Position numbers and translations under genes: made by a program | In this document: piece after piece, positions 2,887 to 32,590 of the stretch | How the letters are laid out: each line of letters opens with the position of its first letter | Position numbering within the stretch: position 1 is the first letter of the stretch | Notes under the pieces: model-generated | Databases searched by the model: none | Seen by the model: only the letters and a program-made list of their open reading frames with translations | What the model was told of the DNA's origin: nothing | Assembly (NCBI GenBank): GCA_903926205.1 | Contig: CAIYID010000052.1 | Span: 1-41,360, forward strand | DNA: 41,360 nucleotides | DNA from: an uncultured Bdellovibrionales bacterium | GTDB taxonomy: Bacteria; Bdellovibrionota; Bdellovibrionia; Bdellovibrionales; Bdellovibrionaceae | Direction: 5' to 3'

Positions 2887-4988
2887 TGAGTCACTTTACC
2901 CATTAAAATAAATTGATTCAAGTTACCCGTAAAACCATTGATTGGCTGCGGCTGCCCATTACCATCGTACACATTCACGGGAGTTAAACTGAGCGTGTTA
3001 TTTTCGATCGTTTGTTTTACATCTAAAAACATGCCATAAAATTCACTCACCGGACGCGCTGTATTTTGTGGCGTCAGTCGATAATACACAAATACTTTTT
3101 GCATAGTAATTGAACTCTGCGCATTGAGTGTAGTGGTTTGTAATCTAAAGATATCCAAGAGTTGGCCATCCAAATTTTGTGCGGGCAATGTCGCGGTGGC
3201 GGCCTTTGTGCAAAGAGGATTTTGATAATTAATATTGAATTGATTCAAATTCACAGGATCAGTTCCTGAGTCAGGAAAAAACGGATCTCGCCCCAGTTGA
3301 ATCTCCTGAGCATTGGTCGTACCATCGCCATCAGTGTCAACATTAGAATCCACGGTGGTAGGATCAGTGCCTTTTAAAATTTCCATATAATCTGGCAAAC
3401 CGTCGCCATCTGAATCAATCCCAAGATTATAATCACTGTTACTTGCCGTACATTGAGCTGCGGTTAGAGAATTGGTGCAAGGATCGACAGCTGGTTGTGG
3501 ATTTGTATGTAAATCAACGTAATTTAATGGCGTTCCGATTTTATCGAGCCCCATAATTTTAATATCGCAGTCGTTCAAACCATGCCAACCGCTGCTATCG
3601 CTATAGCCTATTTTATTGTGAATCAGCGGATTGCATTGAATTTGTGCATAAGCCGAGGCACAGGCCGTTTGCACACTCGTTATGGTCGTCGTTGGTAAAA
3701 TCCCTCCCGCCAAACGCACGCAAATACCATCAAGAATTGGCAACGCATTTGAAGCACGATTAAACTTTCCAACACTTCGAGGGTCAGTCATTGACAAGCA
3801 GCCGGCGGCCAAATTTGATTGCTTACAGAGCGTATCTTTATCTACATCCGGAAGTCCGCTAGCAGAGGAATCTATAAGTACTTGTCCTTTGCGATTAATG
3901 GCATTTAAATTGAAAAACCCAAAAGAATCAGGTTTGTAGCTGACAGATAATTTACTATTTAAAAGATCTAAAAGTGTATTGCTATTAAAACTACTACCAA
4001 TAATTTGCAGAACTCCGGTTCCGCCAGAAATTTGATTAATATAATAAGTCTGACAAGTGGCCGAATTGGTTGGATCTGGACAAACACTTTGACTGTTTTG
4101 TGAGTAAAAAACTCCGTAGATGGTTAAGCTATTGCCCGCTGTCGCCGTGGTTGTGCTAAGAAGCGCGGTGGATTGTTGAATTTCTTGAGCGTAACATTGC
4201 TGTTTCAGAACAGGATTTGTGACTGTACCACAAGCTGTTTTACCATCATCGGGCGCACCATCAGAGAGAAAGAAAATTTTATAATTTGTATTTTTAGTAC
4301 TGTAGACATTCATGTCATTCATGATTACGCCTTGAGCACAATTCAAAGCATTCACATAATTTGTACCCCTCATGATGGGCGGCTGTGTACTCGCATCGAC
4401 GGCCTGATAATAACGACCATTGGTGATATTCAAAGTACGATACCAACTCGAATTTTGCTCCGCAGATTGAACCGCTTTCAGATCATTGATAACACCGCTT
4501 GGATTAGCCACAAAACCAAGATTATTCACTTGAGTTAAATCACAATTTAAACCCGTGGCCGAACTGCCGTTATACACCACCCCACCGGCAGTATCGCTAA
4601 ACCCTATCACTGAATAAGCCGCGCTCGAGCCCTGCGCGTTCTGGGCGCTAATAAAATTTTGAATCGCCGTTAAGCGTGCTGCGGCAACATCGGAGGCCTT
4701 ACTCGCATCCCAAAAATAACAAGCGCTGCAAGAGCTGGATTTTGTGTTCCAAGCCCCAATATTTGAAGACGACATATCCACCACGAAAACAAATTTATTA
4801 TTTGCATCCAGCGGCTCGACGCGTGAGTCCGAACACATTGCCGCTTTGATATCTTGAGTGAATTGCATCGCCTGCACAGCTAAAGAACGAACCAAATGAA
4901 CATCATTCGAACAGTTTTGAAAACCAAACACCAAGAGATAAAAAAATGGAAATACTAATAAAAATCTTTTTCTTCTTAGATTTTTCAT
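2883..4988 (-). CDS. vWA and TSP3 repeat putative lipoprotein (adhesin-like)
   Basis: A 701-residue protein. The signal region ends F-G-F-Q-N-C-S-N-D, putting a possible lipidated Cys at 26. From about residue 67 there is a von Willebrand A domain: the MIDAS motif V-V-D-M-S-S-S is complete, with the Thr in R-G-T-N-Y-V-N-A-L and the Asp in F-L-S-D-G-A-P-D-D. Near residues 360-375 there is a degenerate D-S-S-A-S-G-L-P-D-V-D-K repeat, and at about 530-575 two TSP3 repeats (D-S-D-G-D-G-L-P-D-Y-M-E and D-T-D-G-D-G-T-T-N-A-Q-E). vWA domains bind ligands through a metal ion; the Myxococcus gliding adhesin CglB is also a vWA lipoprotein. The start overlaps the upstream stop by one base (TAATG). A surface adhesin role is inferred. 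Confidence 0.82.
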   Translation of the reverse strand: MKNLRRKRFLLVFPFFYLLVFGFQNCSNDVHLVRSLAVQAMQFTQDIKAAMCSDSRVEPLDANNKFVFVVDMSSSNIGAWNTKSSSCSACYFWDASKASDVAAARLTAIQNFISAQNAQGSSAAYSVIGFSDTAGGVVYNGSSATGLNCDLTQVNNLGFVANPSGVINDLKAVQSAEQNSSWYRTLNITNGRYYQAVDASTQPPIMRGTNYVNALNCAQGVIMNDMNVYSTKNTNYKIFFLSDGAPDDGKTACGTVTNPVLKQQCYAQEIQQSTALLSTTTATAGNSLTIYGVFYSQNSQSVCPDPTNSATCQTYYINQISGGTGVLQIIGSSFNSNTLLDLLNSKLSVSYKPDSFGFFNLNAINRKGQVLIDSSASGLPDVDKDTLCKQSNLAAGCLSMTDPRSVGKFNRASNALPILDGICVRLAGGILPTTTITSVQTACASAYAQIQCNPLIHNKIGYSDSSGWHGLNDCDIKIMGLDKIGTPLNYVDLHTNPQPAVDPCTNSLTAAQCTASNSDYNLGIDSDGDGLPDYMEILKGTDPTTVDSNVDTDGDGTTNAQEIQLGRDPFFPDSGTDPVNLNQFNINYQNPLCTKAATATLPAQNLDGQLLDIFRLQTTTLNAQSSITMQKVFVYYRLTPQNTARPVSEFYGMFLDVKQTIENNTLSLTPVNVYDGNGQPQPINGFTGNLNQFILMGKVTQ

Positions 4989-7324
4989 TAATTTTTTCCT
5001 TTATCAAGAACTCCGTACATTGGAGCAAATAATGACAAACTTAACTCCGCGTTCGTAATCACATTATTGATAATAATTGGACGTTTATAAATCCACCACT
5101 TCACCTGACCAGGATCACTTTCGTTGACCGTTCTGATCAAAGCTAAAATATTGTTTTGGTTCACATCAGAAATGTAAGTAATCAACTGCTGAGAATAATC
5201 TATTGGATGATGATGTGGTCGATCAGAATACATTTGTAAAACAGGAGCCTGATGGAAGGCGCTGTAATTGGTTCCCTGTGCTGATTTTACCGTTCTCCAA
5301 CTGCTCACATTTACTTGAACTACAGGGGACACTTTTAAACCAGACAAAGTCGGCAAAGCATGAAGTAAAATTTGTGTCTGACCTGAGCCCAAGTCATTCA
5401 CGCTGTATGAAATTTTAGCTTCTGCGGGAACCTGATTAATCAAAGCCATCGGATTTAAGCCGCTAGCAAAATTAATCAAGTTTGGTACTCCGTCATTATT
5501 TGAGTCCAAAATTCCGTCTGAATTGTTTGGATTAAAACCGTAAACAACCTCTAAGAAATCAGGGATTGAGTCACCATCGGAATCAAAATTATAAGGATCC
5601 GATCCAATGATTTGCTCTTCGCACTCATTGAGACCATCACCATCTGAATCCAATTGTGGATCACAACCCAATTCACTGCCATTCAATAAAAGTTGACCTA
5701 GCTCCTGACAACGAGATTGATAACTTGGATTTAAGTAAATCGAATTCAAACACACGCCGTTACTTCGTGGGTTATAAGGATCAAGTCCGGCTGCTATTTT
5801 GTCAGCATCAAAAGAACCATCTCCTGCCGAGTCCACGCTCAATGTTCCATGCTGATTCAAACGAACATTCGGATTAAATATGTAGGTGTTAGTAATACGA
5901 TAGTTAAAAGGATTTGAGTCCAGCAAAGGAAACGGAGGGTTGGTCGGTTTAGTCATGTCTTGATTCCAGTTGTATTGTCGTTGCCGTGCCGACTGATCCG
6001 CCATCAATGCGGAGATATAATTAGTTTCACCAGTTGGCGCTAACGCCGCCACTCTGGCAGGATCAAGCTGCACCATATCGACTCGTGCAAAGCCACCGCC
6101 AAAATATTCAGGTAAACTTTGAATCATGCCATAATAAATTCCAATTTGATTAATGGAATTTGCAACAGGATCTCCCCAGGAGTTTTTCATCGATTGATAG
6201 AGTAGCGTACAAGTTGGATCCGAGGCTCTTAAATTATCTAACAAACAAGTTGAAGCATTATTTGGTGGCACAAACATATTAAACACTGTTTGAAAATACT
6301 TCTGAATTGGTGATAAATATCCATCGGTCACATGGATAATTTGATACTCCGGATAGTAACTCTGATTGTTGTACATATCATTATAAATGAAAGTGTACAG
6401 TCTTTTCAAAAAGGAACCTAAGTCTGTTGTGCCCATGGTGGTGTCTTTGTACCGATAAGGAAAGGGCGTACCATTTGGATAAAGTGTTGTTCCGTCTTGA
6501 GTTAAATCCGAAATCGCTGTGGCCGCTAATTGATTGTCAGCCTGAATAGTATTCAACGCTGTTAACGTACTTTGCCAGAGCAGATTTCCACTTGCATCCA
6601 CATCGTTTAAGTTCATAAAATTCAAACCACCATTGGGCGCAGACGGATTTGGTGGCAATAAATTCTCCAACACCTGTTGATTCAAACCACCTGTCACAGG
6701 TACAATCAGCACTTTAATATTAGAGGCTGTCGAATTACCATTCTGTTTCACGATGCTAGCAATGGCATTGTAGATCATCTGAATTCGATTCGCCACGCCA
6801 CTGACGGCATAATCAGCTCCAGCGGCAGTCAAGAAGGGCGTCATAAAGTTCGAGCCCCCGCCCCAATTTCCAGTGAGCAAAGAAATATTTGTCGGATTCG
6901 TAAAGTAATTTGGATAAGAAGGAGCATTCACCGCGCGACTCGGTTGAACAACACAATCCATCCCCGAAGCCCTTTGATCTGTCGGGCTACCATTCGTTGA
7001 ATTATAGCCGCCCCCATTAGCAAAATTTGGATCATAAAGCACAAAGGGATTGGCGCTTGGCTCATTCTGATTAAGAGTACCGCCATCTATATCTTGTGCA
7101 CAGGTCCCGGAGATCATCGAGTGACTCATATCGAGCATGAAAATATAGCGACGAGGAACCACAAATTGACCTCGTGGCAATTCATAAGGATTGCCATCAA
7201 CGCCCGCTAATAAATTCACATTTGGAGCTTGTTTTAATTTAATATCATTCGAGCATTGTTGGCCAATGACCAACAAAAAAAACATCGCCGTTATCAGACT
7301 AAGGATAACTGTAGGTTTCATCAC
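4988..7324 (-). CDS. Large vWA and TSP3 repeat putative lipoprotein
   Basis: A 778-residue protein and first gene of the five-gene block. The N-terminus is hydrophobic and ends V-I-G-Q-Q-C-S-N-D, a variant of the lipobox of its two paralogues. A vWA domain begins near residue 60 with F-M-L-D-M-S-H-S-M (MIDAS D-x-S-x-S); a later strand has H-V-T-D-G. Between about 550 and 625 there are three TSP3-type repeats (D-S-D-G-D-G-L-N-E-C-E-E, D-S-D-G-D-S-I-P-D-F-L-E, D-S-N-N-D-G-V-P-N-L). The C-terminal domain has S-D-V-N-Q-N-N-I-L-A-L-I-R, matching the smaller paralogue. The sequence before the ATG is only a weak ribosome-binding site (AGGTG). It lies 299 bp after the motor operon in the same direction, so read-through is possible. 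Substrate or ligand is unknown. Confidence 0.82.
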   Translation of the reverse strand: MMKPTVILSLITAMFFLLVIGQQCSNDIKLKQAPNVNLLAGVDGNPYELPRGQFVVPRRYIFMLDMSHSMISGTCAQDIDGGTLNQNEPSANPFVLYDPNFANGGGYNSTNGSPTDQRASGMDCVVQPSRAVNAPSYPNYFTNPTNISLLTGNWGGGSNFMTPFLTAAGADYAVSGVANRIQMIYNAIASIVKQNGNSTASNIKVLIVPVTGGLNQQVLENLLPPNPSAPNGGLNFMNLNDVDASGNLLWQSTLTALNTIQADNQLAATAISDLTQDGTTLYPNGTPFPYRYKDTTMGTTDLGSFLKRLYTFIYNDMYNNQSYYPEYQIIHVTDGYLSPIQKYFQTVFNMFVPPNNASTCLLDNLRASDPTCTLLYQSMKNSWGDPVANSINQIGIYYGMIQSLPEYFGGGFARVDMVQLDPARVAALAPTGETNYISALMADQSARQRQYNWNQDMTKPTNPPFPLLDSNPFNYRITNTYIFNPNVRLNQHGTLSVDSAGDGSFDADKIAAGLDPYNPRSNGVCLNSIYLNPSYQSRCQELGQLLLNGSELGCDPQLDSDGDGLNECEEQIIGSDPYNFDSDGDSIPDFLEVVYGFNPNNSDGILDSNNDGVPNLINFASGLNPMALINQVPAEAKISYSVNDLGSGQTQILLHALPTLSGLKVSPVVQVNVSSWRTVKSAQGTNYSAFHQAPVLQMYSDRPHHHPIDYSQQLITYISDVNQNNILALIRTVNESDPGQVKWWIYKRPIIINNVITNAELSLSLFAPMYGVLDKGKN

Positions 7325-7500
7325 CTAGACTATCGTCGAAAGATTGGCAAAACTTGAGAGTTTTTTTAAAAAAAATTGGCGTACTTTTTGAATACTGTTT
7401 TATTGCCTTTGAATCTAAAAGGCTTTTTGTTTTATATGATCAAGTTATTCTTTTCGACTTAATAACGAAATTCCAAAATTGGGATATCTCAAAAAGATAA

Positions 7501-7529
7501 AAATCTCAAAATTGTAAATCTCAAAATTG
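7501..7529. repeat. Two 14-bp direct repeats in the motor/adhesin gap
   Basis: AAATCTCAAAATTG occurs twice with a 15-bp period, and the upstream CCAAAATTGGGATATCTC shares parts of it. The gap 7325-7623 is otherwise AT-rich, without a convincing gene. A weak 6-bp inverted repeat (AGAGCC/GGCTCT, near 7556-7586) could end some motor transcripts. Role of the repeats unknown; binding sites for a regulator are possible. Confidence 0.4.
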
Positions 7530-9521: not shown

Positions 9522-10139
9522 ATGAAACGTTTTTTTATGTTACTCACTTTCATCAGTTTATGGACAAGCGCCTCTTTTGCGCAAGATTACCCTGAGCAAT
9601 CGACTCGATCGGGCATGGATCAGCAAGCTTGGCGTTACAGGGACCATACCGGATGGACGCCCTACCTTGGAGCGGGCGTTGGTTATACCAATAATACGAA
9701 CAACCTCTACGCCGAAGGAGTGCCTAGTTCTGTGAAAATTATCGGCTCCTATCAGTTAAAAAGTACAAAAGGAATTTTTGATTTAGGCTACGGCCTTCAA
9801 AATCAAAGTTTTTCTCAAACCAAAGCTCTGGAAAATAACATTTCTACTGCCGCAATGGAATTAGCCGCCCGATATCAGTTTGAAACCCAACTTCAGCTTG
9901 GTATTGTTTATAACCAATTATTCAATAAAGGACAAAATTTTGGCGCTAACCAGGCCGATGCAGAATTTGCCGGTGTTCAATTATTGAAAGAATTTGGAAT
10001 GGGCAGTGACTACGCAGGACGCTTCGGAGGAAAAATTCTCACCAGTCTCAATGTCAATAATGAAACCTCCAACATGTACATGCTGGAATTTCAAATTGGC
10101 TGGGGTGGAGCAGGCCCTGCCTCGACAGCCAGTAATTAG
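9522..10139 (+). CDS. Outer-membrane beta-barrel protein
   Basis: A 205-residue protein with signal peptide (MKRFFMLLTFISLWTSASFA, cut before Q-D). The mature chain shows alternating hydrophobic and polar residues typical of membrane beta-strands: W-T-P-Y-L-G-A-G-V-G-Y, K-G-I-F-D-L-G-Y-G-L, A-A-R-Y-Q-F-E-T-Q-L-Q-L-G-I-V-Y, and a late strand M-Y-M-L-E-F-Q-I-G-W-G. Length and pattern fit a small barrel of about eight strands (OmpA/OmpW-like size), but no specific family is recognised. AGGAGG stands 6 bases before the ATG, which suggests strong translation. It is monocistronic, with its own promoter candidate and terminator. Confidence 0.78.
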   Translation: MKRFFMLLTFISLWTSASFAQDYPEQSTRSGMDQQAWRYRDHTGWTPYLGAGVGYTNNTNNLYAEGVPSSVKIIGSYQLKSTKGIFDLGYGLQNQSFSQTKALENNISTAAMELAARYQFETQLQLGIVYNQLFNKGQNFGANQADAEFAGVQLLKEFGMGSDYAGRFGGKILTSLNVNNETSNMYMLEFQIGWGGAGPASTASN

Positions 10140-10183
10140 TTTCTATCGTTGTCCCGCGACGAATTGGTAAATCCTTTTCAATG

Positions 10184-10217
10184 AAAGCACCTTTGCTTAA
10201 ACAAAGGTGCTTTTTAT
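10184..10217 (+). terminator. Intrinsic terminator after beta-barrel gene
   Basis: A perfect 12-bp stem, AAAGCACCTTTG paired with CAAAGGTGCTTT, with a 6-base loop, followed by a T-rich stretch. It lies 45 bp after the stop codon. Confidence 0.88.
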
Positions 10218-10295
10218 TCGTGGTCAATGCTTAGTCCTCAAACAATTCGCTGGGATGAAATGAGTGTCGCAAATTGAGAAAAAATGTCAAAACAC

Positions 10296-10322
10296 TTATG
10301 TCTCCACCCCGTCTGCCGATAA
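10296..10322 (+). promoter_or_regulatory. Possible sigma-28 promoter
   Basis: GCCGATAA at 10315-10322 equals the sigma-28 (FliA) -10 consensus exactly. The -35 position at the required 11-base distance, TTATGTCT, matches TAAAGTTT at only 5 of 8 positions. If real, transcription of the SUMF1-like gene would start near 10332 and depend on the flagellar regulon, as the che operon appears to. Confidence 0.35.
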
Positions 10323-10407
10323 AGCATTGTACTTTAAACATAATTAATGAGGCAGACATTCATATATCTTAATTTCAATTAGGAGACACCTCTTTCCAAA
10401 ACGGAGG
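10299..10407 (+). promoter_or_regulatory. Nested inverted repeats and masked ribosome site
   Basis: TGTCTCC (10299-10305) pairs with GGAGACA (10382-10388), and inside it GTCTGCC (10311-10317) pairs with GGCAGAC (10351-10357). Just after, CCTCT (10389-10393) can pair with the ribosome site GGAGG (10403-10407) of the gene at 10418. Either DNA-level operator dyads or a leader RNA that controls translation would explain this; the exact -10-like octamer overlaps one arm, so both cannot be fully used at once. Confidence 0.4.
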
Positions 10408-10417
10408 ATTTAATTTT

Positions 10418-11359
10418 ATGAACAATAAACTATTACTTCCAATTCGCTGCGTAATAATTTCTTCGATGATCTTGATAAATCTTGCTTGTATGGGCATAGG
10501 TTCAAGTACAGTCGCTGGCTCAGCCTCCTTGAATACCTCCATTTCATGCCCGACGGGCTATGTTCCGGTTCCTCATAATTCAAACTATACAAGTACCGAC
10601 TTCTGCGTAGGAAAATACATAGCTTCTCAAAGTGGCTCTCAAGCTGTTTCTGTTGCTACAAATACACCTTGGGTCAATATCACACAGCCATCCGCTATTA
10701 CTGCTTGCCAGGCCAACGGCGCAGGCTATGACCTGATCAGCAATGCCGAGTGGCAAACCATAGCCCAAAACATTGAACAACAAGCCTCGAATTGGTCAGG
10801 GGGAGCCCTTGGCAATGGCTTTCTCAGTAATGGTATGTCCAACGGTTTTCAAAGTTCTGTCCAGGTCGCTAACGTCAGTGATTCTCAGGGGTGTTACTTG
10901 ACGGGGGACTCCTGCACCACAAACTGGGATAACCAAAAACGCACCTTTAATTTGAGTAATGGCAATGTTGTTTGGGATATTTCTGGAAATGCTTACGAGT
11001 TTATGAAAGACCTGAACACCACAAATTTTGGTACTAGCAACAATGCTTCTCAAGTCACGGCGACAACCAACCCAATCATCGGAACCTTGACCGGAGGTGC
11101 CGGTATTGCAACCGGAACTGCTGTTTTTCTTTTTGGCCCGGCTGGAAATTACACTTCATTAAACACAGGAACTATTGGTGCTGTTCAATCCTATGGCGGT
11201 CTTGGATGGATGCAAATAGGCTTTAACGGAGGAGCCATGGTTCGTGGTGGTTGCATTAGCGATCTAGGCTATACTGGCATATTCGCACTCTCTTTAGACA
11301 TGGGCACGTCGAATACCGCTGGGTACTACGGATTCCGTTGCGTCTATCACGTGCCATAA
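10418..11359 (+). CDS. SUMF1/FGE-fold lipoprotein
   Basis: A 313-residue protein. The signal region ends L-I-N-L-A-C, a good lipobox with Cys24 lipidated. The rest follows the formylglycine-generating-enzyme (SUMF1) fold: F-C-V-G-K-Y near residue 65, A-I-T-A-C-Q then Y-D-L-I-S-N-A-E-W-Q at 103-120, W-D-I-S-G-N-A-Y-E-F at about 188-197, and the ending R-G-G-C ... Y-Y-G-F-R-C-V. In this fold the family includes both real sulfatase-activating enzymes and many non-catalytic binding proteins; the paired active-site cysteines of FGE are not evident to me, so an envelope-binding role is more likely. Ribosome site ACGGAGG is 10 bases before the ATG. Monocistronic, with an unusual structured leader. 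No clear terminator follows in the gap to 11631, in which I see no other gene. Confidence 0.78.
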   Translation: MNNKLLLPIRCVIISSMILINLACMGIGSSTVAGSASLNTSISCPTGYVPVPHNSNYTSTDFCVGKYIASQSGSQAVSVATNTPWVNITQPSAITACQANGAGYDLISNAEWQTIAQNIEQQASNWSGGALGNGFLSNGMSNGFQSSVQVANVSDSQGCYLTGDSCTTNWDNQKRTFNLSNGNVVWDISGNAYEFMKDLNTTNFGTSNNASQVTATTNPIIGTLTGGAGIATGTAVFLFGPAGNYTSLNTGTIGAVQSYGGLGWMQIGFNGGAMVRGGCISDLGYTGIFALSLDMGTSNTAGYYGFRCVYHVP

Positions 11360-11631
11360 GAAGCGCTGAAGAGAAAAGATACAGCACAATATGAAATTTT
11401 GGTTCCATTATGGCTCTATTATCGTTCCATAAAATATGAAAATTATGAATTTATTATAAGCTTTTCTCGGGAAATAAATAAAGTTATCTTTAGAAAACGA
11501 ATTTGATGAATATTCTCACGAAATCCTGTATGTTCCTCGCGATGACTAACCAGTTTCGTGTTGTAACTTATGGAAAATTAATTCCTACAACATTGAAATG
11601 GCATTAAAACTAAACAGGAGAATAAATAACT

Positions 11632-12168
11632 ATGAATAAATTACTTTGTGCATTGATGATGATTTCATTTGCAAGCGTCACTTGGGCAGCGAATTTAGAT
11701 CAATTATCGCTCGACGAACGTTATAAAACTATCGAATCTCTTTTTAAAAGTGGAAGTCCGATTTCAGTAGAAAACGTAGCTAATGCTCATCCGAAATTTA
11801 AATACCTCATGAACAATGAGGAATCTGGGCGCGTTCAAGCTTTGAATAATTTACTAAACAACGTCGACATAAAAATAAGCCAAAAGTTTTTTCAACCTGG
11901 TTCTTATTCGGTTTCGCTTCGGTACATTTTTGAACAAGATCCTTATGACAAGCCATTTGTCGTAATCAACTTCAATGCGGCGGGAGATATTTCAAAACTT
12001 GAAACGCAATCAAACGAGGCTACTGTCAAAAACCTCGGCTGGGGCAGCACTCTTCCTCCTTGGTACCAAACACAAGATATACTTACTTTTAAAACAGCAA
12101 GCTTAGATGGTAAAAACTATCTTCTTGTCTCTTTTGGCTTAAACATGTTCGGCTACTCTGAACTATAG
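11632..12168 (+). CDS. Exported protein of unknown function
   Basis: A 178-residue protein with a signal peptide (MNKLLCALMMISFASVTWAA). The N-terminal half looks helical (L-D-E-R-Y-K-T-I-E-S-L-F-K-S-G, N-A-H-P-K-F-K-Y-L-M). The C-terminal half looks like beta-strands (S-V-S-L-R-Y-I-F, F-V-V-I-N-F-N, N-Y-L-L-V-S-F-G-L). No family recognised. A CAGGAG ribosome site stands 12 bases before the ATG, and an intrinsic terminator follows, so it is a single-gene unit. Likely periplasmic or on the outer membrane. Confidence 0.72.
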   Translation: MNKLLCALMMISFASVTWAANLDQLSLDERYKTIESLFKSGSPISVENVANAHPKFKYLMNNEESGRVQALNNLLNNVDIKISQKFFQPGSYSVSLRYIFEQDPYDKPFVVINFNAAGDISKLETQSNEATVKNLGWGSTLPPWYQTQDILTFKTASLDGKNYLLVSFGLNMFGYSEL

Positions 12169-12863: not shown

Positions 12864-15329
12864 TTAGCTCACTTTGGCCGTTCGGCCCTTGCTCTTTTCT
12901 TCGACAAGCTCGACAATTTTTTCTGCAATATCATCAAGAGGTAGTTGATATTCAACTCCACCCATTTTTGCAGCTTCTTTAGGCATACCATAGACCACTG
13001 AGGTTTCTTCGTCCTGACCGATGGTTCTCGCCCCTGCGTCTCTCAAAACTTTCATCTGTCTTGCTCCGTCGGCGCCCATTCCAGTCAATATCACACCAAC
13101 CACATTTCCAATGCGATTATCGGCCACACTCTTAAACAAATAATCCACAGAAGGTCTATGTCGATTCATCAAAGGATCATCATTGATGACTACTTTTATT
13201 CCACTTCCCGATTGTGTTATTCCCATTTGTTTTCCACCAGGGGCGATTAAAACCAAATTAGGTTTTACTTCATCTCCATCTGCCGCTTCACGCACCTCAA
13301 AAGGACAATAACTGTTCAATCGAGCCGCAAAGGCCTCGGAAAATACGGGTGGAATATGCTGTACAATCAGAATTGGAGGAATTTGATCAGGTAAACTTTC
13401 CAGCACATGGCGCAAGGCCTCTGTACCACCGGTGGAAGCACCCATAACAATAAGAGATAATTCATCACCATATGCCGTTTTGCGCAAAACTTTGCGTCTT
13501 TTTTGATTTTTCACAAGATTTGCTTTGGCCGCGGTTTTTAAGCTCTCACAAATTCTATCTGCAGCCTCTTTCAAATCATTGAATTCTGGTTTCTGAATGT
13601 AGTCAACCGCGCCAATCTCAAGAGCTTTGAGGATTTGCGGTCCTTCTTCTTTACTGATCGAGGTGATCATGACTGTCGGTATCCCATAAACAGGATGGAG
13701 TTTCTGCAATAGCGTTACACCGTCCATCTCAGGCATATTAACATCCATTGTAATCACGTCAGGACGATTGGCTTTAATCGCCGCTTCCACCTCAGAAGGC
13801 CTGCCGATAGCGCCAATCACTTCTAAATTTGGATCTTTTGATATCAATTGGCCTAAAAGATGACGAATGGTTGCAGAATCGTCGACGATCAACACTTTCA
13901 CTTTTTTCGTCATCACTGGCGACACTATTTTTGGCTCTGGAGTCACCACCTTCCGAGGCGCAAGTTTTGTAAAACTATTTGCTTTTGGAAGAGCAACTCT
14001 TTGCGGTACCGCCATGCTCTTTTGAGCCTTTGCATCTCGAAGAGAAAGAATTGTTTTAATTTTCGATCGAAGCTCATCGCCAGCCTCCACTAAATTTTCA
14101 AGTGAAGGTTTTTCTACGTAATCAATTGCTCCCAATTTTAAAGCTGTTTGTGCCATCGTTGGATCATCTCGATTGATCGCTGAGACAATCACAACCGGAG
14201 TGTTTGGATCGTTGAACTCTTTCAAAAATCCCACGCCATCAAGTTCTGGCATATGCAGATCAAGCAAAACGATATCGAATTTATTTTTAGCGAGAATATT
14301 CAAAGCTTCGCGTCCATTTTTGGCCGTCGCCCCCACTTTGAACCCATGATCTTGCACCAAGATTTTTTTCAGCAAAGCGAGTATCGTGGGGGAATCATCC
14401 ACAGCAAGAACAGAAATTTCTTTTCTGTCGCGAGTCCTCGATGCTGGTACCAGAAAATTGATTGATGGAGCCGACTCCCCTGCAACTTTATGACAATAGA
14501 TCGAAGATCCCGCCAAATTCAAAGGTAGCCCCAGACCATTAAGACTTTCAGAAATTCCCAAGTATAAAAATCCTGAAGGATGCAAATGGTTGATCATCTG
14601 TTTTGTCACTTGTTTGATTTGCATTTGCTTGAAATATATAAATACATTTCTGCAAAAAATTATATCAAATTCCTTGCCTGCCAAAAATGAATTAGGATCC
14701 AATAAATTCAAAGGCAAAAATTCACAATGATGACGTAAATCATCTCTGACCTTCGAAAAATCAGAGACTTCACCCTGACCTCGAATCCAATGATTACTCA
14801 CATAAATCGCTGGAGAAGTGCGAACCTCTTCGACTCGATAAACTCCATTTTTTGCATGCTTCACAGACTCTGGATCAATATCAGTTCCCCAAATTTTAAA
14901 ACTCAGTTCAGGGGCTAATTGTTTTAAATGAACATTCAGAAACATTGCCAAAGAATATACTTCTTGACCTCGGCTGCAAGCGGCTGACCAAACTCGAATT
15001 TGCTTATCTGGTCTTGCGCGAGCCGCTTCTATAGCTGCAGGTAAGCCTGTCGAAATCAAGTGTTCAAAATGCGCGAACTCTCGAAAAAAATACGTGTGAT
15101 GTGTCGTCATGAGAGAAAGTAGAGCCTGACTCTCCTGCTCCAGATGATGAGTCAAATACTCCAAATAGTGAGAAAAGCCATCAATGCCGAGCCTCACCAT
15201 TCGACTACGAAGTCGATTTTCAACCATAGCAACTTGCCGCGCTCCCAATTGGATCCCGGCCATTTCAGATACTATCTGAGAAACTTTTTCAACAACGGTA
15301 GCAACAAGCTCCTTAGATTCATCACTCAT
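12864..15329 (-). CDS. cheB: CheR-REC-REC-CheB fusion chemotaxis protein
   Basis: An 821-residue protein joining four modules. Residues 1-285: CheR methyltransferase, with the SAM-binding A-A-C-S-R-G-Q-E at 116-123 and I-I-F-C-R-N-V-F-I-Y-F near 223-233. Residues 305-425: receiver domain with Asp357 (L-L-D-L-H-M-P-E). Residues 478-595: second receiver with Asp529 (T-M-D-V-N-M-P-E). Residues 625-815: CheB methylesterase with the triad Ser632 (G-A-S-T-G-G), His658 (Q-H-I-P-P) and Asp754 (G-M-G-A-D-G). So one chain can add and remove receptor methyl groups, with the second receiver most likely gating the esterase. CheR has G-Q-E where enterobacterial CheR has G-E-E. Last gene of the cheA-cheW operon, 14 bp after cheW. 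No chemoreceptor or separate cheY is in the window. Confidence 0.92.
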   Translation of the reverse strand: MSDESKELVATVVEKVSQIVSEMAGIQLGARQVAMVENRLRSRMVRLGIDGFSHYLEYLTHHLEQESQALLSLMTTHHTYFFREFAHFEHLISTGLPAAIEAARARPDKQIRVWSAACSRGQEVYSLAMFLNVHLKQLAPELSFKIWGTDIDPESVKHAKNGVYRVEEVRTSPAIYVSNHWIRGQGEVSDFSKVRDDLRHHCEFLPLNLLDPNSFLAGKEFDIIFCRNVFIYFKQMQIKQVTKQMINHLHPSGFLYLGISESLNGLGLPLNLAGSSIYCHKVAGESAPSINFLVPASRTRDRKEISVLAVDDSPTILALLKKILVQDHGFKVGATAKNGREALNILAKNKFDIVLLDLHMPELDGVGFLKEFNDPNTPVVIVSAINRDDPTMAQTALKLGAIDYVEKPSLENLVEAGDELRSKIKTILSLRDAKAQKSMAVPQRVALPKANSFTKLAPRKVVTPEPKIVSPVMTKKVKVLIVDDSATIRHLLGQLISKDPNLEVIGAIGRPSEVEAAIKANRPDVITMDVNMPEMDGVTLLQKLHPVYGIPTVMITSISKEEGPQILKALEIGAVDYIQKPEFNDLKEAADRICESLKTAAKANLVKNQKRRKVLRKTAYGDELSLIVMGASTGGTEALRHVLESLPDQIPPILIVQHIPPVFSEAFAARLNSYCPFEVREAADGDEVKPNLVLIAPGGKQMGITQSGSGIKVVINDDPLMNRHRPSVDYLFKSVADNRIGNVVGVILTGMGADGARQMKVLRDAGARTIGQDEETSVVYGMPKEAAKMGGVEYQLPLDDIAEKIVELVEEKSKGRTAKVS

Positions 15330-20788: not shown

Positions 20789-22510
20789 TTAATTATTCAC
20801 AGCCTGATTCACAGCGGCTTCAGCATCAATCAAACCAGAACCTGTCTGATTTTCATCATTTGGTTGCAAAGCATGAGCTGTTGACTTCAAGATCTTCTTT
20901 ACATCTGCGCCGGTCAGATTCTTGTTTGTCGCTCGCAACAAAGCTGAAACACCAGCAACATGAGGCGCGGCCATTGAAGTTCCAGAGAAACTTTCATAAT
21001 CCGTTGCCACTGTTTGAATGGTGCTTGTCACTTTTTTGCTCACACCAAGAGCACTTGCTAATTGTTGTCCGACAGTTTGTTCAATAGAGAGCACAGGAAT
21101 TGCGACAATCGAACCATCTTGAGTCAGGCCCCCAGAAGTGATCAAGCCCGCTTCATTATTAAAGATGATAACACCAATGGCATTCGCAGCGATGGCATTT
21201 TTGACTTTGTCCGAAAACCTGATAGTGCCACGTTGAACCAAAGCAATTTTACCAGTCAGATCCAATTTTTGAAAATCCTCTGGTTGCCCCAAACCCGCAT
21301 AAATTAAATCAGCAGTCAGTTGATTTGGAACTTCAGGAGAACCTTGGAAGGCACTTGATGAAATCGTTTGATCCGACCCGTTAACATTCACAGTGACACG
21401 ACTCTCTCGACCCGTTCCTTGAGGAACAGAAGAAACAACCTCAACTCCAGGAGCGACCACTGCTAATTCAGGTCCCCACTGAGAAAAACTGCCTTTTTTC
21501 GAATTCCTGTCAATGGCACCAACCGCAATAACGCTAGGAAAGGCGGCTGGAAAGCCCACTTGACCAACACCATCGTTACCTGAAGCTGCGACCACAACGA
21601 TTTTAGCTCGATCAGCTGATTCCACAGCCGATTGTTCAGCCGCTGAAGCGTTCGCACCACCCAATGACATACTAATAACATCTACTTTTTGAGAAATTGC
21701 CCAATTGATTCCTTGAGCAACGGCAATGTTTGAACAACCTTGTTCGCTACAAACACGACCAGAAAGAATTTTTGCTTCTGGCGCCACACCCGTAAAACCA
21801 TCAGCCGATTGAACTCCTGCAATCGTACCTGCGCAATGTGAACCATGACCAACTTTATCCGCAAAAGGATACGGCGTATTACCATCGTGAATGAAGTCAC
21901 GTCCTTGTTCAAAGTTTGCAGCTAGTGCCGGATGGTCTTTATCAATACCAGTATCAATCACAGCAACACGAGCGCCTCGACCGTAATTAGCTTTTTCCCA
22001 TGCTTGCGGAGCATTGACCGCAATTATTCCCCACGGAGTTTTAGGGCCTGTGCCCTTAGAATAATTGTCCATCAAATGAGGAGTCGAACCTGAAACGTAG
22101 TGTTTTGCATATTGCAAAGAGAAATCCCAAGGCTTAGTTAAAGAATATCCCGACACAGGACGCGGAGCCGGATGAAAAAATTCTTTTTCGATCACAAGAG
22201 CCTGACCGCTCGCTTTGATCACCGCCACAGCAGAATCGTCTTCTGAATTCACGATGATCGAGTGAAGCTGAGCCAAAGAGTCTTCTACGACTGCATCTGA
22301 ACCAGCAAAAGGTTTCAGGGTTTTTCCGTTCATCACTACAGTCAGTGAAGACATAGTAGAACCAGAAGATAAACTCACTTGAGAGTGAATTTGTTGAAAT
22401 ACCATCGCATTTTTCATGACGACGATGTAGCGAGAGGCAAAGGCCGATGTTGATAAACCAACTACGATCAATACTGCTAAGGCTTTAGTTGCCAATCTTA
22501 AGGAATTCAT
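20789..22510 (-). CDS. Secreted subtilisin-like protease with PA domain
   Basis: A 573-residue S8 family serine protease. Signal peptide to about residue 26 (S-A-F-A). Residues 27-115 look like a degenerate propeptide inhibitor. Catalytic residues: Asp186 (V-I-D-T-G-I-D), His222 (G-H-G-S-H-C-A-G-T), Ser512 (S-G-T-S-M-A-A-P-H), with the oxyanion Asn in A-A-S-G-N-D-G near 312. Between about 380 and 500 a PA (protease-associated) domain is inserted, with L-T-G-K-I-A-L-V-Q-R-G and I-G-V-I-I-F-N-N, as in lactocepin-type subtilases; it likely binds substrate. Two Cys near V-C-S-E-Q-G-C may pair. GGAG is 5 bases before the ATG. It has its own terminator. An exported protease fits a predatory or proteolytic life style. 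Confidence 0.93.
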   Translation of the reverse strand: MNSLRLATKALAVLIVVGLSTSAFASRYIVVMKNAMVFQQIHSQVSLSSGSTMSSLTVVMNGKTLKPFAGSDAVVEDSLAQLHSIIVNSEDDSAVAVIKASGQALVIEKEFFHPAPRPVSGYSLTKPWDFSLQYAKHYVSGSTPHLMDNYSKGTGPKTPWGIIAVNAPQAWEKANYGRGARVAVIDTGIDKDHPALAANFEQGRDFIHDGNTPYPFADKVGHGSHCAGTIAGVQSADGFTGVAPEAKILSGRVCSEQGCSNIAVAQGINWAISQKVDVISMSLGGANASAAEQSAVESADRAKIVVVAASGNDGVGQVGFPAAFPSVIAVGAIDRNSKKGSFSQWGPELAVVAPGVEVVSSVPQGTGRESRVTVNVNGSDQTISSSAFQGSPEVPNQLTADLIYAGLGQPEDFQKLDLTGKIALVQRGTIRFSDKVKNAIAANAIGVIIFNNEAGLITSGGLTQDGSIVAIPVLSIEQTVGQQLASALGVSKKVTSTIQTVATDYESFSGTSMAAPHVAGVSALLRATNKNLTGADVKKILKSTAHALQPNDENQTGSGLIDAEAAVNQAVNN

Positions 22511-22844: not shown

Positions 22845-24155
22845 TTAAAAGCAATTAAGAATGCTTTCGTTCTGAATGTGGCACTGTTCAACAATGAGTT
22901 GATGGTAAGCACTCATGGAATTGAGCAAAGAGTTTTCTGCATCCAAAAAACGAGTTTCATCAATGAGCAAATCATTCACCGAGAGCCGCCCTAAGCGAAA
23001 TCGCCTGAGGCTGTCATTTCGAAGTTCTTGCAGTTTCGTTACACTTTGCTTTGAACTTTCCAAATTTTTTCTTGCGAGTTGAACTCTTAAATCCAAGGTT
23101 TCAAGATTCGCCTGACTCTGACGCAATGACTGATTCAAATTTGCCATCGCAGCGCGAGCGCTGGCTTCAGACTCTTGAGCTTGAGCCACCCCCGCCCACT
23201 GATCCCAGAGTGGTATAGTCAGAGTAAGCCCTGCATACCACTGCCCCTGTTGTGAGGAACCATTACCTAAATCCGTCCAACCACCCGTGGCATCAAGAGA
23301 GGGAAGATAAGAACTGCGCCATAATTGTTGCGCATTTTTATGAAAGTAATCTGTGTCAGCGGTAAAAGCTCTGACTGCAAAAAAATCCTGAGGATTTTTT
23401 CGAACTTTAGTGTTCTTGTTATCATATCTATTAAGAGTCAGTGGCCAGTCGGTGACTTTTGGATTCACCTCAGCCAACGTCTTGATGGAGTTAACAATTT
23501 GCACCTCTCCCAATTGAGCTTCAGCAAGAAAAATTTGTGAGGCCTCATAATCGACCTTGGCTTTTTCATATTCTTGCTCAGCCAGCTGTCCTTGCCTGTA
23601 GCGCTCTTTGGCCACATCCACTGATTGTTGTTGGACGGACACATGACCTTTGCGAATCTCAATGATCTGGCGCTGCTGTATCAGTTGAAAAAGTAAATTT
23701 GCGACGGAAGTTTCGACATCTTCTTTGGTTTGGCTCAAACGAGCTTCTTCCGCTGTAACCTTTGAGTTAGCCGCCCTTCGGCTAAGTTCACTACTGCCAA
23801 ATTTAAAAACATTCAGATTTGCCGTGGCTGTCGTCGTATTCCCGACATTCCCACTGCCTGATAAAAGAGCCATGTTTTGATTGGTGATTGTCACTGAAGC
23901 TATTGGTGTCCAGTAAAGTGACTTTGAGGTTTTCATCTCTTGTGCGGCCGCAAGAATTGCCTTCTGTGACTCAATCGAAGAGGCTTGTTCGAGCACCGCT
24001 TTTACAATGGACTTGAACTCAAATGCGGCACTGGAGGGATCATTGCTGGTCGTTTTTGCTCGGAGTTCCGGAGAGAAAATAAATCCAAATAGAAAAAAAC
24101 TTATTCCCGTGGTTTTAAGCAGAGTTTTTATTGGAGTTTTACGTTCAGTTTTCAT
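22845..24155 (-). CDS. TolC-family outer-membrane efflux protein
   Basis: A 436-residue outer-membrane factor. The N-terminus is K-R-rich and hydrophobic, ending about S-P-E-L-R-A-K, probably a signal peptide. Two long helical repeats follow: in the first, E-E-A-R-L-S-Q-T-K-E-D-V-E and R-Y-R-Q-G-Q-L-A-E-Q-E-Y-E-K-A; in the second, S-S-Y-L-P-S-L-D-A-T-G-G-W, L-T-L-T-I-P-L-W-D-Q-W and R-F-R-L-G-R-L-S-V-N-D-L-L. The R-x-x-x-G repeats are typical of the family. As a trimer it forms the exit duct for the pump encoded upstream; it overlaps that gene by 4 bp. Last gene of the operon. Confidence 0.9.
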   Translation of the reverse strand: MKTERKTPIKTLLKTTGISFFLFGFIFSPELRAKTTSNDPSSAAFEFKSIVKAVLEQASSIESQKAILAAAQEMKTSKSLYWTPIASVTITNQNMALLSGSGNVGNTTTATANLNVFKFGSSELSRRAANSKVTAEEARLSQTKEDVETSVANLLFQLIQQRQIIEIRKGHVSVQQQSVDVAKERYRQGQLAEQEYEKAKVDYEASQIFLAEAQLGEVQIVNSIKTLAEVNPKVTDWPLTLNRYDNKNTKVRKNPQDFFAVRAFTADTDYFHKNAQQLWRSSYLPSLDATGGWTDLGNGSSQQGQWYAGLTLTIPLWDQWAGVAQAQESEASARAAMANLNQSLRQSQANLETLDLRVQLARKNLESSKQSVTKLQELRNDSLRRFRLGRLSVNDLLIDETRFLDAENSLLNSMSAYHQLIVEQCHIQNESILNCF

Positions 24156-27100
24156 TGCAACTCCGGAGAGGATTCTCGCCAGCTCATCTTTGTTCCCGCC
24201 TGCATTGAAAGGGCCTCATTATCTTTTTTGACTCCACCACGAGAGATCTTCCACTGCATATAATTAACTTGAAGCGAGGGAACCAAAAAGAGGGTCAACA
24301 GCATTGAAACCCAAAGCCCCCCGGCAACAGCGATCCCTAAAGGTTGAAGTATTTTTCCACCCTCCCCCATCCCCAAGGCGATCGGAGTCATTCCTAAGAT
24401 AGTCGTGAGTGAGGTCATCACGATAGGCCTTAGTCGAACACGTGCGGCATAAACTGCGGCCTCAACAGGAGCACGCCCCTGGTCAACAAGACGCTTCATA
24501 AAATCGACCAAGATCACACTGTTAGCCACGGCAATACCGTTAAGAAGAATCACACCCAATACGGAGTTCAAAGAAAGATTGCTGGAGAAAATCCAAAGAC
24601 TGGCAAGGACACCAATGATTCCTAGTGGAATAGCAATGAGCACTAGAAGTGCGTGCATTAAATCTCCAAACTGAAGAACCATTGTTAAAAAAATCAAAAC
24701 CACCGATAAAAGAACGGCCCACTTCAATTGGTCAATAGCCTGGTTGAGCTCCACATCAGGATCTGTAAGTTTAATGGAAAGTTGTTTTTTATTTAAAACC
24801 TCAGCATTGCTACTTTTCCAGTTTTCCACTTTGCTGGTCGCAAGAAGTCGAGATTCAGAAATTTGTGATTTTTTTGCCTCTGCTTGACGAGCTTCAACAA
24901 TGTTAACGAAGCTCTGATCTTCAATGTAGGTGGGCGCGGGTTTTTCAATCTGAGTCACAGTGGCTAGAGCTGATAAAGGAAGCACTTTGTTTTTTATGCC
25001 AATGGGCAAGCCTTTTAAATCCGCAATAGAGGAAACTCGATGGGCGGGATACTTTAACTGTACCTTGTATGTTTTCAATTGATCGCCGATTTCAGCAACG
25101 ACTTTACCCTGAGTCGCCACCCTCATCATACTGCCAAGGTCGTAATCACTCACTAGCGTGTCCGTTTTTGCTAGTTCAAAAAGCGTGCGTCGAAGTGGAT
25201 TTACAATGATCGCTTTATCTTTTCCTGCAAAATTTGGTTTTTCGGACACTGATGGAAAAATATTTTCTTCCTGAATCAGAAGTCGTAAATCGTGAGCAGT
25301 CAAAGAGCGATCACTCGCCGTGCCTCCGCGAACCTCAACCCTTAAGTGAGGAGGATTGGGAATTTTTAACTCTGAGGGATTCCACGGTTGCACCCAAAAA
25401 TTTGTTTCCGGAGTATTGGTGTAATCTGCTTCGATGCTCTTCCAAACACGATCCATATTTTTTTTTGTTTTCAGACGTATCATTACTTGAGCATCATTCA
25501 CCCCATGCAACTGCGTGAAGGTGTATTGCATATCGGAATCATATTTCTGAAGCACCTCGAACTCAATTTTCTCTACCAGATTGGTTAATTGCGCAGGCTC
25601 TGTGAAATTTTGTGGTTGAATACCTAAGATGATCCAATCGGTCTCTGGCCGTCCGACGATTTCTTTTGGCAGTCGGGGCAAAACTAAAACGGTGAGCCCA
25701 ACCACCAGTGCCGCAACGAGGCCGTAGCTTAAAATTTGAAGTTTTTTTCTCAGCAAAAAGTAATTAAGGGCCTTGGAATAAATATTCTCAAGTCCCGTGA
25801 GAGTTCCTTCGATGGGACTTTTCGGATGAAACTGAGTTTCACCGCTCAAGAGCTGCAGACGGATTGTCGGAACCAACACCAGCGCGACAACAGCTGAAAG
25901 CGCGTGAGAAAAAACAACGGCTTTGGCAAGATCACCTAAGATTGCGTTGGTCAAACCATGTGTCGCTATCAAAGGGATAAAAACAACCAGCGAAGCCACA
26001 GTTGAAGAAATGATCGGTGCTTTAACCTCATTCACGGCCTTAACAATCAATGCCAATCGTTCATCAACATTTAGCTTTTTGGTTACGCCTTCGAAATGTC
26101 GAAAGATATTCTCCATAACAACAACGCTGGCATCGACATTCATTCCCGCTGATAGAGCCAACCCGCCGAGAGAAATAAGGTTGAGGTTCATATTAAAAAG
26201 CTTCATGAAAATAAACGCCAACACCATGCTGAGTGGAATCTCAATGGCGGCAGTGATGACATTTTTAAGACTTCCGATGAAAATAAAAAGCACAATGACC
26301 GCGAGTAAAGCCGCGAGCCCGACCTCTCTCAAAACACCTGAAATACTCGCATTGATGAATTCACTGGGGTTGACAAGAACTTTGTACTCAATGTCTGCAG
26401 GAATCAATGGTTTCGTTTTTTCAACAATCGCCATGATATCGTCCGACATTCGTTTGATATTACCGCCCGCTCGAGGTGAGGCAAAAAGGATGAGGCTCGA
26501 CACACCATTTGTTTTGAAGGATTGTACTGACTTTTTATCAACGGCTAAGCGAATCGTGGCAATGTCCTTCACTTGCATTGAACGCCCGGCTCGAGTGCTG
26601 ACCATGATGTTTCCAATATCTTCTGTGCCTTTTAAGACTCGAGGAAAAAAGATATTCAGGTGATTACCTTCGCCGACCTCTAAAGAACCTCCATTCACTC
26701 CGCGATTGGCATTAACAATTGCATTTTCAACGTCACTTGGAAAAATTTGGAATGAAGCCAATTTTTCCGGATCAAGACTAACTTCGATGCTTTTTTCTTG
26801 CGGGTTCCACAAAGCAGCGCCATCGGAATCGGCAATGGCTGCAAGACCAGGCTTCATGAGCGGATTAACAATATCATAAACTTCTTCAAGACTTCTCTTC
26901 GAACTATAAAAGCTCACTGCTAAAAATCCGCTATTCTCATTCCAAAAACCCACTTGAGATGAATTGCGTAATTCTTCAGGCCAGGTTCCAGAAAGACTAT
27001 TGATCAAGCTTTGAACTTCCCTCAACGCCTTCTGGCCATTTGTTCCCCATTCGAATTGAATTTTGAAATTTCCCTGACTGTCTCTGTAATCAGAATAAGT

Positions 27101-27340
27101 GTGTTCCACTCGGTAGCCATCAACCAGGATTGCTGAAAGCTCGCTTTCCACTCGAGAACCAATAACAGCGCGAAACTCTTCAGCGGACATATCCCCGTAT
27201 CTCAGCCAAACGCCAATCATCGGCTGGGAACTATTAGGAAATAAAGAAATCGGTAGATTAAAGCCTGCAATAATTCCCGCCATCGCTAAGAGTGCAAGCA
27301 AAACATAAACGCGAAGAGGCCGACGATAAATTTCCTGCAT
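24152..27340 (-). CDS. RND efflux permease (hydrophobe/amphiphile type)
   Basis: A 1062-residue inner-membrane pump of the AcrB/MdtB class with the usual 12-helix duplicated layout: helix 1 near residue 12, the periplasmic loop to about 330, helices 2-6 (with V-I-V-L-F-I-F-I-G-S-L), a second loop, and helices 8-12 ending before K-I-S-R-G-G-V-K-K. The helix 4 motif reads G-M-N-V-D-A-S-V-V-V-M-E-N-I: one Asp where AcrB has two (V-D-D-A), so the proton relay differs from AcrB. Substrate cannot be told from sequence. The start ATG overlaps the adaptor stop by one base (TAATG) and the end overlaps the TolC-like gene by 4 bp, so the operon is fully coupled. Confidence 0.92.
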   Translation of the reverse strand: MQEIYRRPLRVYVLLALLAMAGIIAGFNLPISLFPNSSQPMIGVWLRYGDMSAEEFRAVIGSRVESELSAILVDGYRVEHTYSDYRDSQGNFKIQFEWGTNGQKALREVQSLINSLSGTWPEELRNSSQVGFWNENSGFLAVSFYSSKRSLEEVYDIVNPLMKPGLAAIADSDGAALWNPQEKSIEVSLDPEKLASFQIFPSDVENAIVNANRGVNGGSLEVGEGNHLNIFFPRVLKGTEDIGNIMVSTRAGRSMQVKDIATIRLAVDKKSVQSFKTNGVSSLILFASPRAGGNIKRMSDDIMAIVEKTKPLIPADIEYKVLVNPSEFINASISGVLREVGLAALLAVIVLFIFIGSLKNVITAAIEIPLSMVLAFIFMKLFNMNLNLISLGGLALSAGMNVDASVVVMENIFRHFEGVTKKLNVDERLALIVKAVNEVKAPIISSTVASLVVFIPLIATHGLTNAILGDLAKAVVFSHALSAVVALVLVPTIRLQLLSGETQFHPKSPIEGTLTGLENIYSKALNYFLLRKKLQILSYGLVAALVVGLTVLVLPRLPKEIVGRPETDWIILGIQPQNFTEPAQLTNLVEKIEFEVLQKYDSDMQYTFTQLHGVNDAQVMIRLKTKKNMDRVWKSIEADYTNTPETNFWVQPWNPSELKIPNPPHLRVEVRGGTASDRSLTAHDLRLLIQEENIFPSVSEKPNFAGKDKAIIVNPLRRTLFELAKTDTLVSDYDLGSMMRVATQGKVVAEIGDQLKTYKVQLKYPAHRVSSIADLKGLPIGIKNKVLPLSALATVTQIEKPAPTYIEDQSFVNIVEARQAEAKKSQISESRLLATSKVENWKSSNAEVLNKKQLSIKLTDPDVELNQAIDQLKWAVLLSVVLIFLTMVLQFGDLMHALLVLIAIPLGIIGVLASLWIFSSNLSLNSVLGVILLNGIAVANSVILVDFMKRLVDQGRAPVEAAVYAARVRLRPIVMTSLTTILGMTPIALGMGEGGKILQPLGIAVAGGLWVSMLLTLFLVPSLQVNYMQWKISRGGVKKDNEALSMQAGTKMSWRESSPELQ

Positions 27341-32576: not shown

Positions 32577-32590
32577 TTGTACGATGCCTC

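Follow-up and report, generated by a model that had tools for sequence, protein, structure and literature searches.

In the 41,360-nucleotide stretch of DNA from an uncultured Bdellovibrionales bacterium that was analyzed here (the window), one gene on the minus strand encodes a CheR methyltransferase, two receiver domains (REC1 and REC2) and a CheB methylesterase as a single chain of 821 amino acids. Trees of moderate strength indicate that this compact protein, cheRB, is most likely a derived fusion and that REC1 is most likely a CheB-type receiver instead of an added CheY. We propose that cheRB may act as a tethered, two-headed adaptation enzyme with the canonical switch on CheB and a second switch probably directed at CheR, and give this reading about an even chance of being correct.

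The cheRB gene and its surroundings

The reading frame starts with ATG, runs for 821 codons before the stop and contains no internal stop; the plus-strand reading of the same positions has many. Pfam detected CheR_N (residues 14–62), CheR (78–266) and CheB_methylest (627–805, E 4e-62), all above cut-off, and matched Response_reg to two stretches, best to residues 307–415. The NCBIfam CheB subfamily model scored the protein at 467.8 bits (cut-off 293), with the best stretch at 475–811. In comparison with solved structures, residues 14–279 align with Salmonella CheR (1bc5, E 2e-41) and residues 475–807 with the entire CheB (6ymz, 1a2o). All 21 residues checked were as expected (21/21). They include Arg83, Glu123, Asp150, Asn208 and Tyr232 of CheR (alignment to 1bc5) and the triad Ser632, His658 and Asp754 of CheB (alignment to 1a2o and 6ymz), whose roles in catalysis and SAM binding we take to be those of the aligned residues. 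Asp357 of REC1 is accompanied by the Asp pair 311/312, Ser 383 and Lys 407, and Asp529 of REC2 by the pair 483/484, Ser 557 and Lys 580. By sequence, the protein thus combines a CheR (CheR_N and SAM domain above the Pfam cut-off, with its residues present), a CheB (N-terminal receiver, linker and Ser-His-Asp methylesterase domain) and, in REC1, a response regulator with Asp pair, phospho-Asp, Thr/Ser and Lys. An earlier, sequence-only reading of this DNA had described the four domains on one polypeptide, without stating the strand, and had considered both receivers complete and all catalytic residues present, which these comparisons bear out. From knowledge of the families, both enzyme halves are expected to be active and REC2 to operate as the CheB switch.

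An AlphaFold model built from 19 sequences has four confident domains (mean pLDDT 86, pTM 0.47). Its REC2–CheB part overlays the complete CheB structures 6ymz and 1a2o with TMt 0.90–0.93, and Foldseek matched its CheR part to 1bc5 with TMt 0.82. Tethers of low confidence separate CheR from REC1 (residues 286–301) and the two modules from each other (residues 440–472). Because of the low pTM, the model does not predict how the modules are arranged, nor, with the tether at 286–301 being of low confidence as well, an interface between REC1 and CheR.

Table 1. Features of the cheRB locus in the window
Feature	Positions	Strand	Basis and remarks
cheRB fusion gene, 821 aa, CheR–REC1–REC2–CheB	12864..15329	-	Single ORF, Pfam, eight-genome alignment
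CheR methyltransferase (CheR_N + SAM domain), aa 14-285	14475..15290	-	Pfam; 1bc5 E 2e-41; Foldseek
REC1, most likely CheB-type receiver, aa 307-415, phospho-acceptor Asp357	14085..14411	-	Pfam; residues in 28/28 loci; REC tree
Linker between the two modules, low confidence, aa 440-472	13914..14012	-	pLDDT <50; comparison with split relatives
REC2, canonical CheB receiver, aa 475-600, phospho-acceptor Asp529	13530..13907	-	NCBIfam, structure matches, residues
CheB methylesterase domain, aa 627-805, Ser632/His658/Asp754	12915..13451	-	Pfam; 6ymz/1a2o
cheW, sole stand-alone CheW found in the genome	15344..15808	-	14 bp before the fusion gene; Pfam
cheA, sole CheA found in the genome	15805..17772	-	4-bp overlap with cheW; Pfam, NCBIfam, genome search

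The genes cheA, cheW and cheRB follow each other in this order on one strand, with spacings of -4 and +14 bp. The genome of the window comprises 3.34 Mb in 94 contigs and is estimated to be 99.96% complete. The genome search identified one CheA, one stand-alone CheW in addition to the CheW domain of CheA, three MCPs and FliM, as well as two matches to the CheX family, while neither CheD nor CheZ had a match in this genome. CheR was matched four times, by cheRB, by two CheB–CheR hybrid kinases and by a partial match of 61 positions on contig C19, which reads as an unrelated small methyltransferase. The five CheB matches were cheRB, the two hybrids and two receiver-less proteins (on contigs C87 and C23). 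Hence, no other conventional CheR for the array was found besides cheRB, whereas CheB has further copies; since the receiver-less C87 protein has an intact triad, the total amount of CheB may exceed that of CheR. Each of the three MCPs contains one site with the pattern that we take to mark methylation sites (shuffled means 0.15–0.17, maximum 2). A canonical C-terminal pentapeptide tether was not found on the MCPs, one of which has an NHEGF-like tail. A second chemotaxis patch of the genome (L146, positions 4324-7506 within C87:64000-78000) encodes a CheX match together with a CheY-like receiver, and also a CheB that has an intact triad but no receiver.

Relatives of cheRB and the origin of the fusion

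A search for the same domain order in other genomes, as the earlier reading had suggested, recovered the compact ORF end to end in seven further genomes, and in total 8 of the 66 genomes of the family contain it (G000, G006, G019, G020, G002, G016, G034 and G082). The seven other proteins share 47–60% identity with that of the window. Identity is 44–73% in the domains and 21–41% in the linker, a pattern to be expected when tethers connect genuine domains, and the SAM-binding and catalytic residues of CheR are identical in all eight compact fusions. Four additional copies are cut by contig ends and were kept out of this count: the one in G028 stops after the start of REC2, those in G014 and G026 stop within CheR and the one in G015 begins near REC2. 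In three genomes (G029, G087 and G079), CheR–REC1 occurs as a protein of 441–445 amino acids with an intact phospho-site and no CheB behind it. G029 and G087 carry the same genus code and may represent one event. As all three genomes have a further CheR with a 528-aa REC–CheB protein beside it elsewhere, the fusion is not indispensable. Other domain orders were found in G017, for which 6% contamination is listed, namely REC–CheR–REC–CheB (L141, 768 aa) and CheR–REC–CheB (L142, 628 aa), which shows that fusions of the CheR/CheB pair recur. In G019, a receiver-less CheD–CheB fusion (L200, positions 4851-5954) lies beside a second cheR and near a cheW. The contig CALQIT020000017.1, titled as a Streptomyces griseus MAG, contains a gene equal to that of G020:C17 from the family of the window, and is probably a mislabelled bin.

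At the level of the phylum, 140 of 368 genomes surveyed had a match at 1e-80. CheR–REC1 was found as one piece in at least 80 genomes (counted by eye), mostly in a frame of about 600–650 amino acids, and among the matches listed REC2–CheB forms a separate piece of about 470–500 amino acids in many phylum genomes. The usual form among these matches is a pair of genes encoding CheR–REC1–X and Y–REC2–CheB, in which X denotes about 180 residues after REC1 in most upstream proteins and Y about 120 residues before REC2 in the downstream ones. In the window, the linker of residues 440–472 takes the place of X and Y. All 19 adjacent pairs measured lie within 32 nt of each other and four overlap by 4 nt. 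Nine of these pairs were chosen for a long reported frame, so that the in-frame share among the 19 is not a fair sample, and the count excludes L126 (distance 47 nt), which has a run of N. Among ten split relatives with a long reported open frame, nine turned out to be two ORFs and one (G270) a true fusion. X and Y are retained in two fused proteins, G042 (1179 aa) and G270 (1107 aa), the latter of which has lost the acidic pair of REC2 and kept REC1 intact. CheR–REC1–X is present in L134, L136 and L138, where no REC2–CheB gene adjoins within the stretch examined.

X resembles the catalytic domain of CheB but lacks its triad. In profile comparison with hhalign, X matched this domain with a score of 44.9 (E 1.5e-6, probability 90%, 143 columns), compared to at most 15.1 for CheR, CheW, REC and CheD and at most 16.0 for 40 column shuffles. 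CheB chains also ranked top, weakly, when the X profile was compared with the PDB (E 0.016 and 0.045), and among Pfam families only CheB_methylest was hit by several members, namely three of 23 (best E 0.0037). Over 23 rows, the catalytic Ser occurs in eight, His in one and Asp in one, and none has all three. The single-sequence structure model of X had a pLDDT of only 38. X reads as a dead, decayed CheB catalytic domain. Such a degenerate domain after CheR–REC is kept across the phylum (L125, L123, L127-L129, L131, L185-L194 and other split relatives). Y has a weak resemblance to CheD (hhalign score 20.9, E 0.0085, 40 shuffles at most 16.0; CheR 17.4, CheB 16.7) and may be a decayed CheD; the Y profile had no CheD among its Pfam or PDB matches. 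A true CheD occupies the place of Y before REC–CheB in G029 (L122, Pfam), and by eye the same appears to hold for G050, G042 and G021 (loci L137, L148 and L150).

In a tree of 26 rows built from the joined domains, in which the midpoint root separates the CheD-type set from all other rows, the nine compact rows form one group within a larger set, with support of 94/90, just below the support mark, and the other split rows fall outside. Nested within the compact group are two exceptions, the split L126 and L122_R, a CheR–REC1 without the CheB half; L126 (G011) is perhaps a broken fusion, with a run of N in its linker. As the compact rows group together, the fusion most likely had a single origin from the two-gene form, with loss of X and Y. 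In the receiver tree, REC1 is a single clade of all 21 sequences (97/95) that lies with the CheB receivers, separated from 15 receiver-only proteins of less than 150 amino acids by a split with 80/87 support, based on few columns; two CheB receivers, both from L142, are placed with CheY instead. The capture of a CheY as REC1 is disfavored by this grouping. Together, REC1 and X look like a CheB paralogue that became attached to CheR. With the receiver of a CheB copy as its likely ancestor, the original partner of REC1 would not have been CheR.

Possible function of the second receiver

Conservation was compared over the 28 loci in which none of the four domains is missing, namely eight compact fusions, two fusions that retain X and Y and 18 split pairs; partial loci were excluded. 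Mean identity is 50.9% for REC1, 47.5% for REC2, 46.1% for CheR and 54.5% for CheB, and 20.8% for X (23 rows) and 15.7% for Y (16 rows). The Asp pair, phospho-Asp and Lys of REC1 are present in all 28 loci, with Ser in 25 and Thr in three at the remaining position, and the acidic pair of REC2 is missing from one of the 28 (G270). This pattern suggests that REC1 is maintained by selection. Because it is conserved like its neighbors, has its phospho-site in 28/28 loci and stays with CheR in the three genomes that lack the CheB half, REC1 probably acts, most likely through CheR; control of CheR is favored since REC1 accompanies CheR and not CheB when the two are separated. The earlier reading had taken the position of the first receiver directly after CheR as a hint that methylation may also be controlled by phosphorylation. 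This suggestion gains comparative support from the association across the phylum, whereas the position alone proves nothing, because the arrangement was inherited and a dead CheB domain follows REC1 in relatives. That REC1 controls CheR, and the direction in which it would do so, we rate slightly below an even chance.

In the proposed mechanism, cheRB would work at the one chemosensory array that was found in this bacterium, which has flagellar genes. CheR would methylate the MCPs and CheB would demethylate or deamidate the same receptors, and as parts of one chain the opposing activities would come to the array at a ratio of one to one, with the same receptors within the reach of one tether. 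Phosphorylation of Asp529 by CheA~P would lift REC2 off the active site of CheB, as in classical CheB, which is stimulated by phosphorylation of its receiver (PMC7698151). REC1 would stem from a second copy of CheB, of which the receiver persists, while the catalytic domain has decayed in the relatives and is absent from the window. Having remained on CheR, REC1 would most likely be phosphorylated at Asp357 by the same CheA and tune CheR reciprocally, so that the molecule might alternate between two states, one methylating and the other demethylating. With less confidence, we extend this proposal to the phylum: in much of Bdellovibrionota, CheR itself may have become a response regulator by means of a grafted, CheB-derived receiver, and the clade of the window may have condensed both arms into a bistable enzyme. 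If this holds true, CheA~P throttles methylation while it activates demethylation, giving two reciprocal arms of phospho-feedback. In the textbook scheme, feedback acts on demethylation only and CheR works at a constant rate. A phylum in which CheR often has a receiver with its phospho-site intact, together with a clade in which the two enzymes form one chain, offers a natural test of two-arm integral feedback and of whether genes fuse under selection for a constant CheR:CheB ratio.

Somewhat less probable than the proposed mechanism, though still a serious candidate, is a bifunctional tethered enzyme in which CheR is constitutive as in E. coli and REC1 takes up phosphate from CheA~P as a sink or docks to CheA or the array. 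REC1 clusters with CheB receivers and with no known regulator of CheR, its tether to CheR is flexible in the AlphaFold model, and lone receivers are mentioned as phosphate sinks in other bacteria (PMC9239204). However, REC1 remains with CheR and not with CheB in the three genomes whose gene has no CheB half, and the two CheX-family matches may make a sink less necessary, although CheZ was not found. We consider it unlikely that the fusion is an expression device only, which keeps CheR and CheB at equal amounts, with REC1 as a vestige. The tight spacing of the split gene pairs and E. coli simulations, which predict less variation in motor bias when cheR and cheB are fully coupled (PMC2716512), would suit such a device, but REC1 is at least as conserved as CheR and REC2 and has a complete site throughout, while X and Y do look vestigial. 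Slightly less likely again is the production of two functional proteins from cheRB by an internal start or by cleavage in the 33-residue linker. The linker is of low confidence, and a simple rule detected in-frame starts with a ribosome-site-like stretch at codon 439 (ATG) in the window and at codon 469 (GTG) in L116; the ATG at codon 473 of the window, just before REC2, has no such stretch. The remaining six compact fusions have no such start by this rule and the two existing ones differ in place, so an internal start before REC2 that is shared by the eight compact fusions at a common place was rejected. A frameshift, chimera or assembly error joining two genes, which the earlier reading had named among the findings that would refute its claim, has a negligible probability: two-gene relatives exist and G011 has its run of N in the same linker, but no sign of such an error was found in the window, the same ORF without X and Y occurs end to end in eight independent genomes that form one tree group with two nested exceptions, and the model has four well-folded domains.

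Known systems and neighboring genes

Our preferred reading, a tethered enzyme with a second switch on CheR, combines features that are known separately. With CheB of Salmonella (1a2o) and Pectobacterium (6ymz), the protein shares the order of receiver, linker and catalytic domain, the triad, the phospho-site and the fold in the model overlay, but its CheB follows CheR and a second receiver on the same chain. With Salmonella CheR (1af7/1bc5), the protein has in common the two CheR domains and the residues for SAM binding and catalysis. Classical CheR has no receiver and is held to be constitutive, whereas the CheR of the window carries a receiver at its C-terminal side. The statement of the earlier reading that methyltransferase and methylesterase are normally separate overlooked the CheB–CheR hybrid histidine kinases, two of which (1639 and 1076 aa) are encoded in the genome of the window itself. 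Since these also have CheB and CheR on one chain, cheRB is not new in kind. The hybrids differ in the order CheB–CheR, in the absence of a receiver before CheB and in the PAS and kinase domains that follow, and the window protein does not have this order of CheB, CheR, PAS and kinase. MapZ, a separate c-di-GMP-binding protein, inhibits CheR1; in the complex (PDB 5xly) CheR is likewise under another signal protein, while the window protein has a built-in receiver. An added domain on CheR is also known from CheR-TPR proteins, which have been linked to alternative-function pathways (PMC3447774); there the added domain is a TPR, and the Pfam matches of the 821-aa protein include no TPR, which sets it apart from this class. 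In the open-access literature searched, with subscription journals mostly outside, we found no description of CheR–REC–REC–CheB beside cheA-cheW, although domain databases may list the architecture, and none of the CheR–REC–dead-CheB form.

Beside the chemotaxis genes, three ORFs of 205, 313 and 178 amino acids (9522-12168, plus strand) were without a match in Pfam or NCBIfam at 0.001. Elsewhere, the window contains a subtilase with a PA domain (20789-22510), two RND efflux gene sets (22845-28284, minus strand, and 32573-37939, plus strand), the second of which includes a membrane-fusion protein with a heavy-metal-binding domain, and a protein of the GH5 cellulase family (39267-40343).
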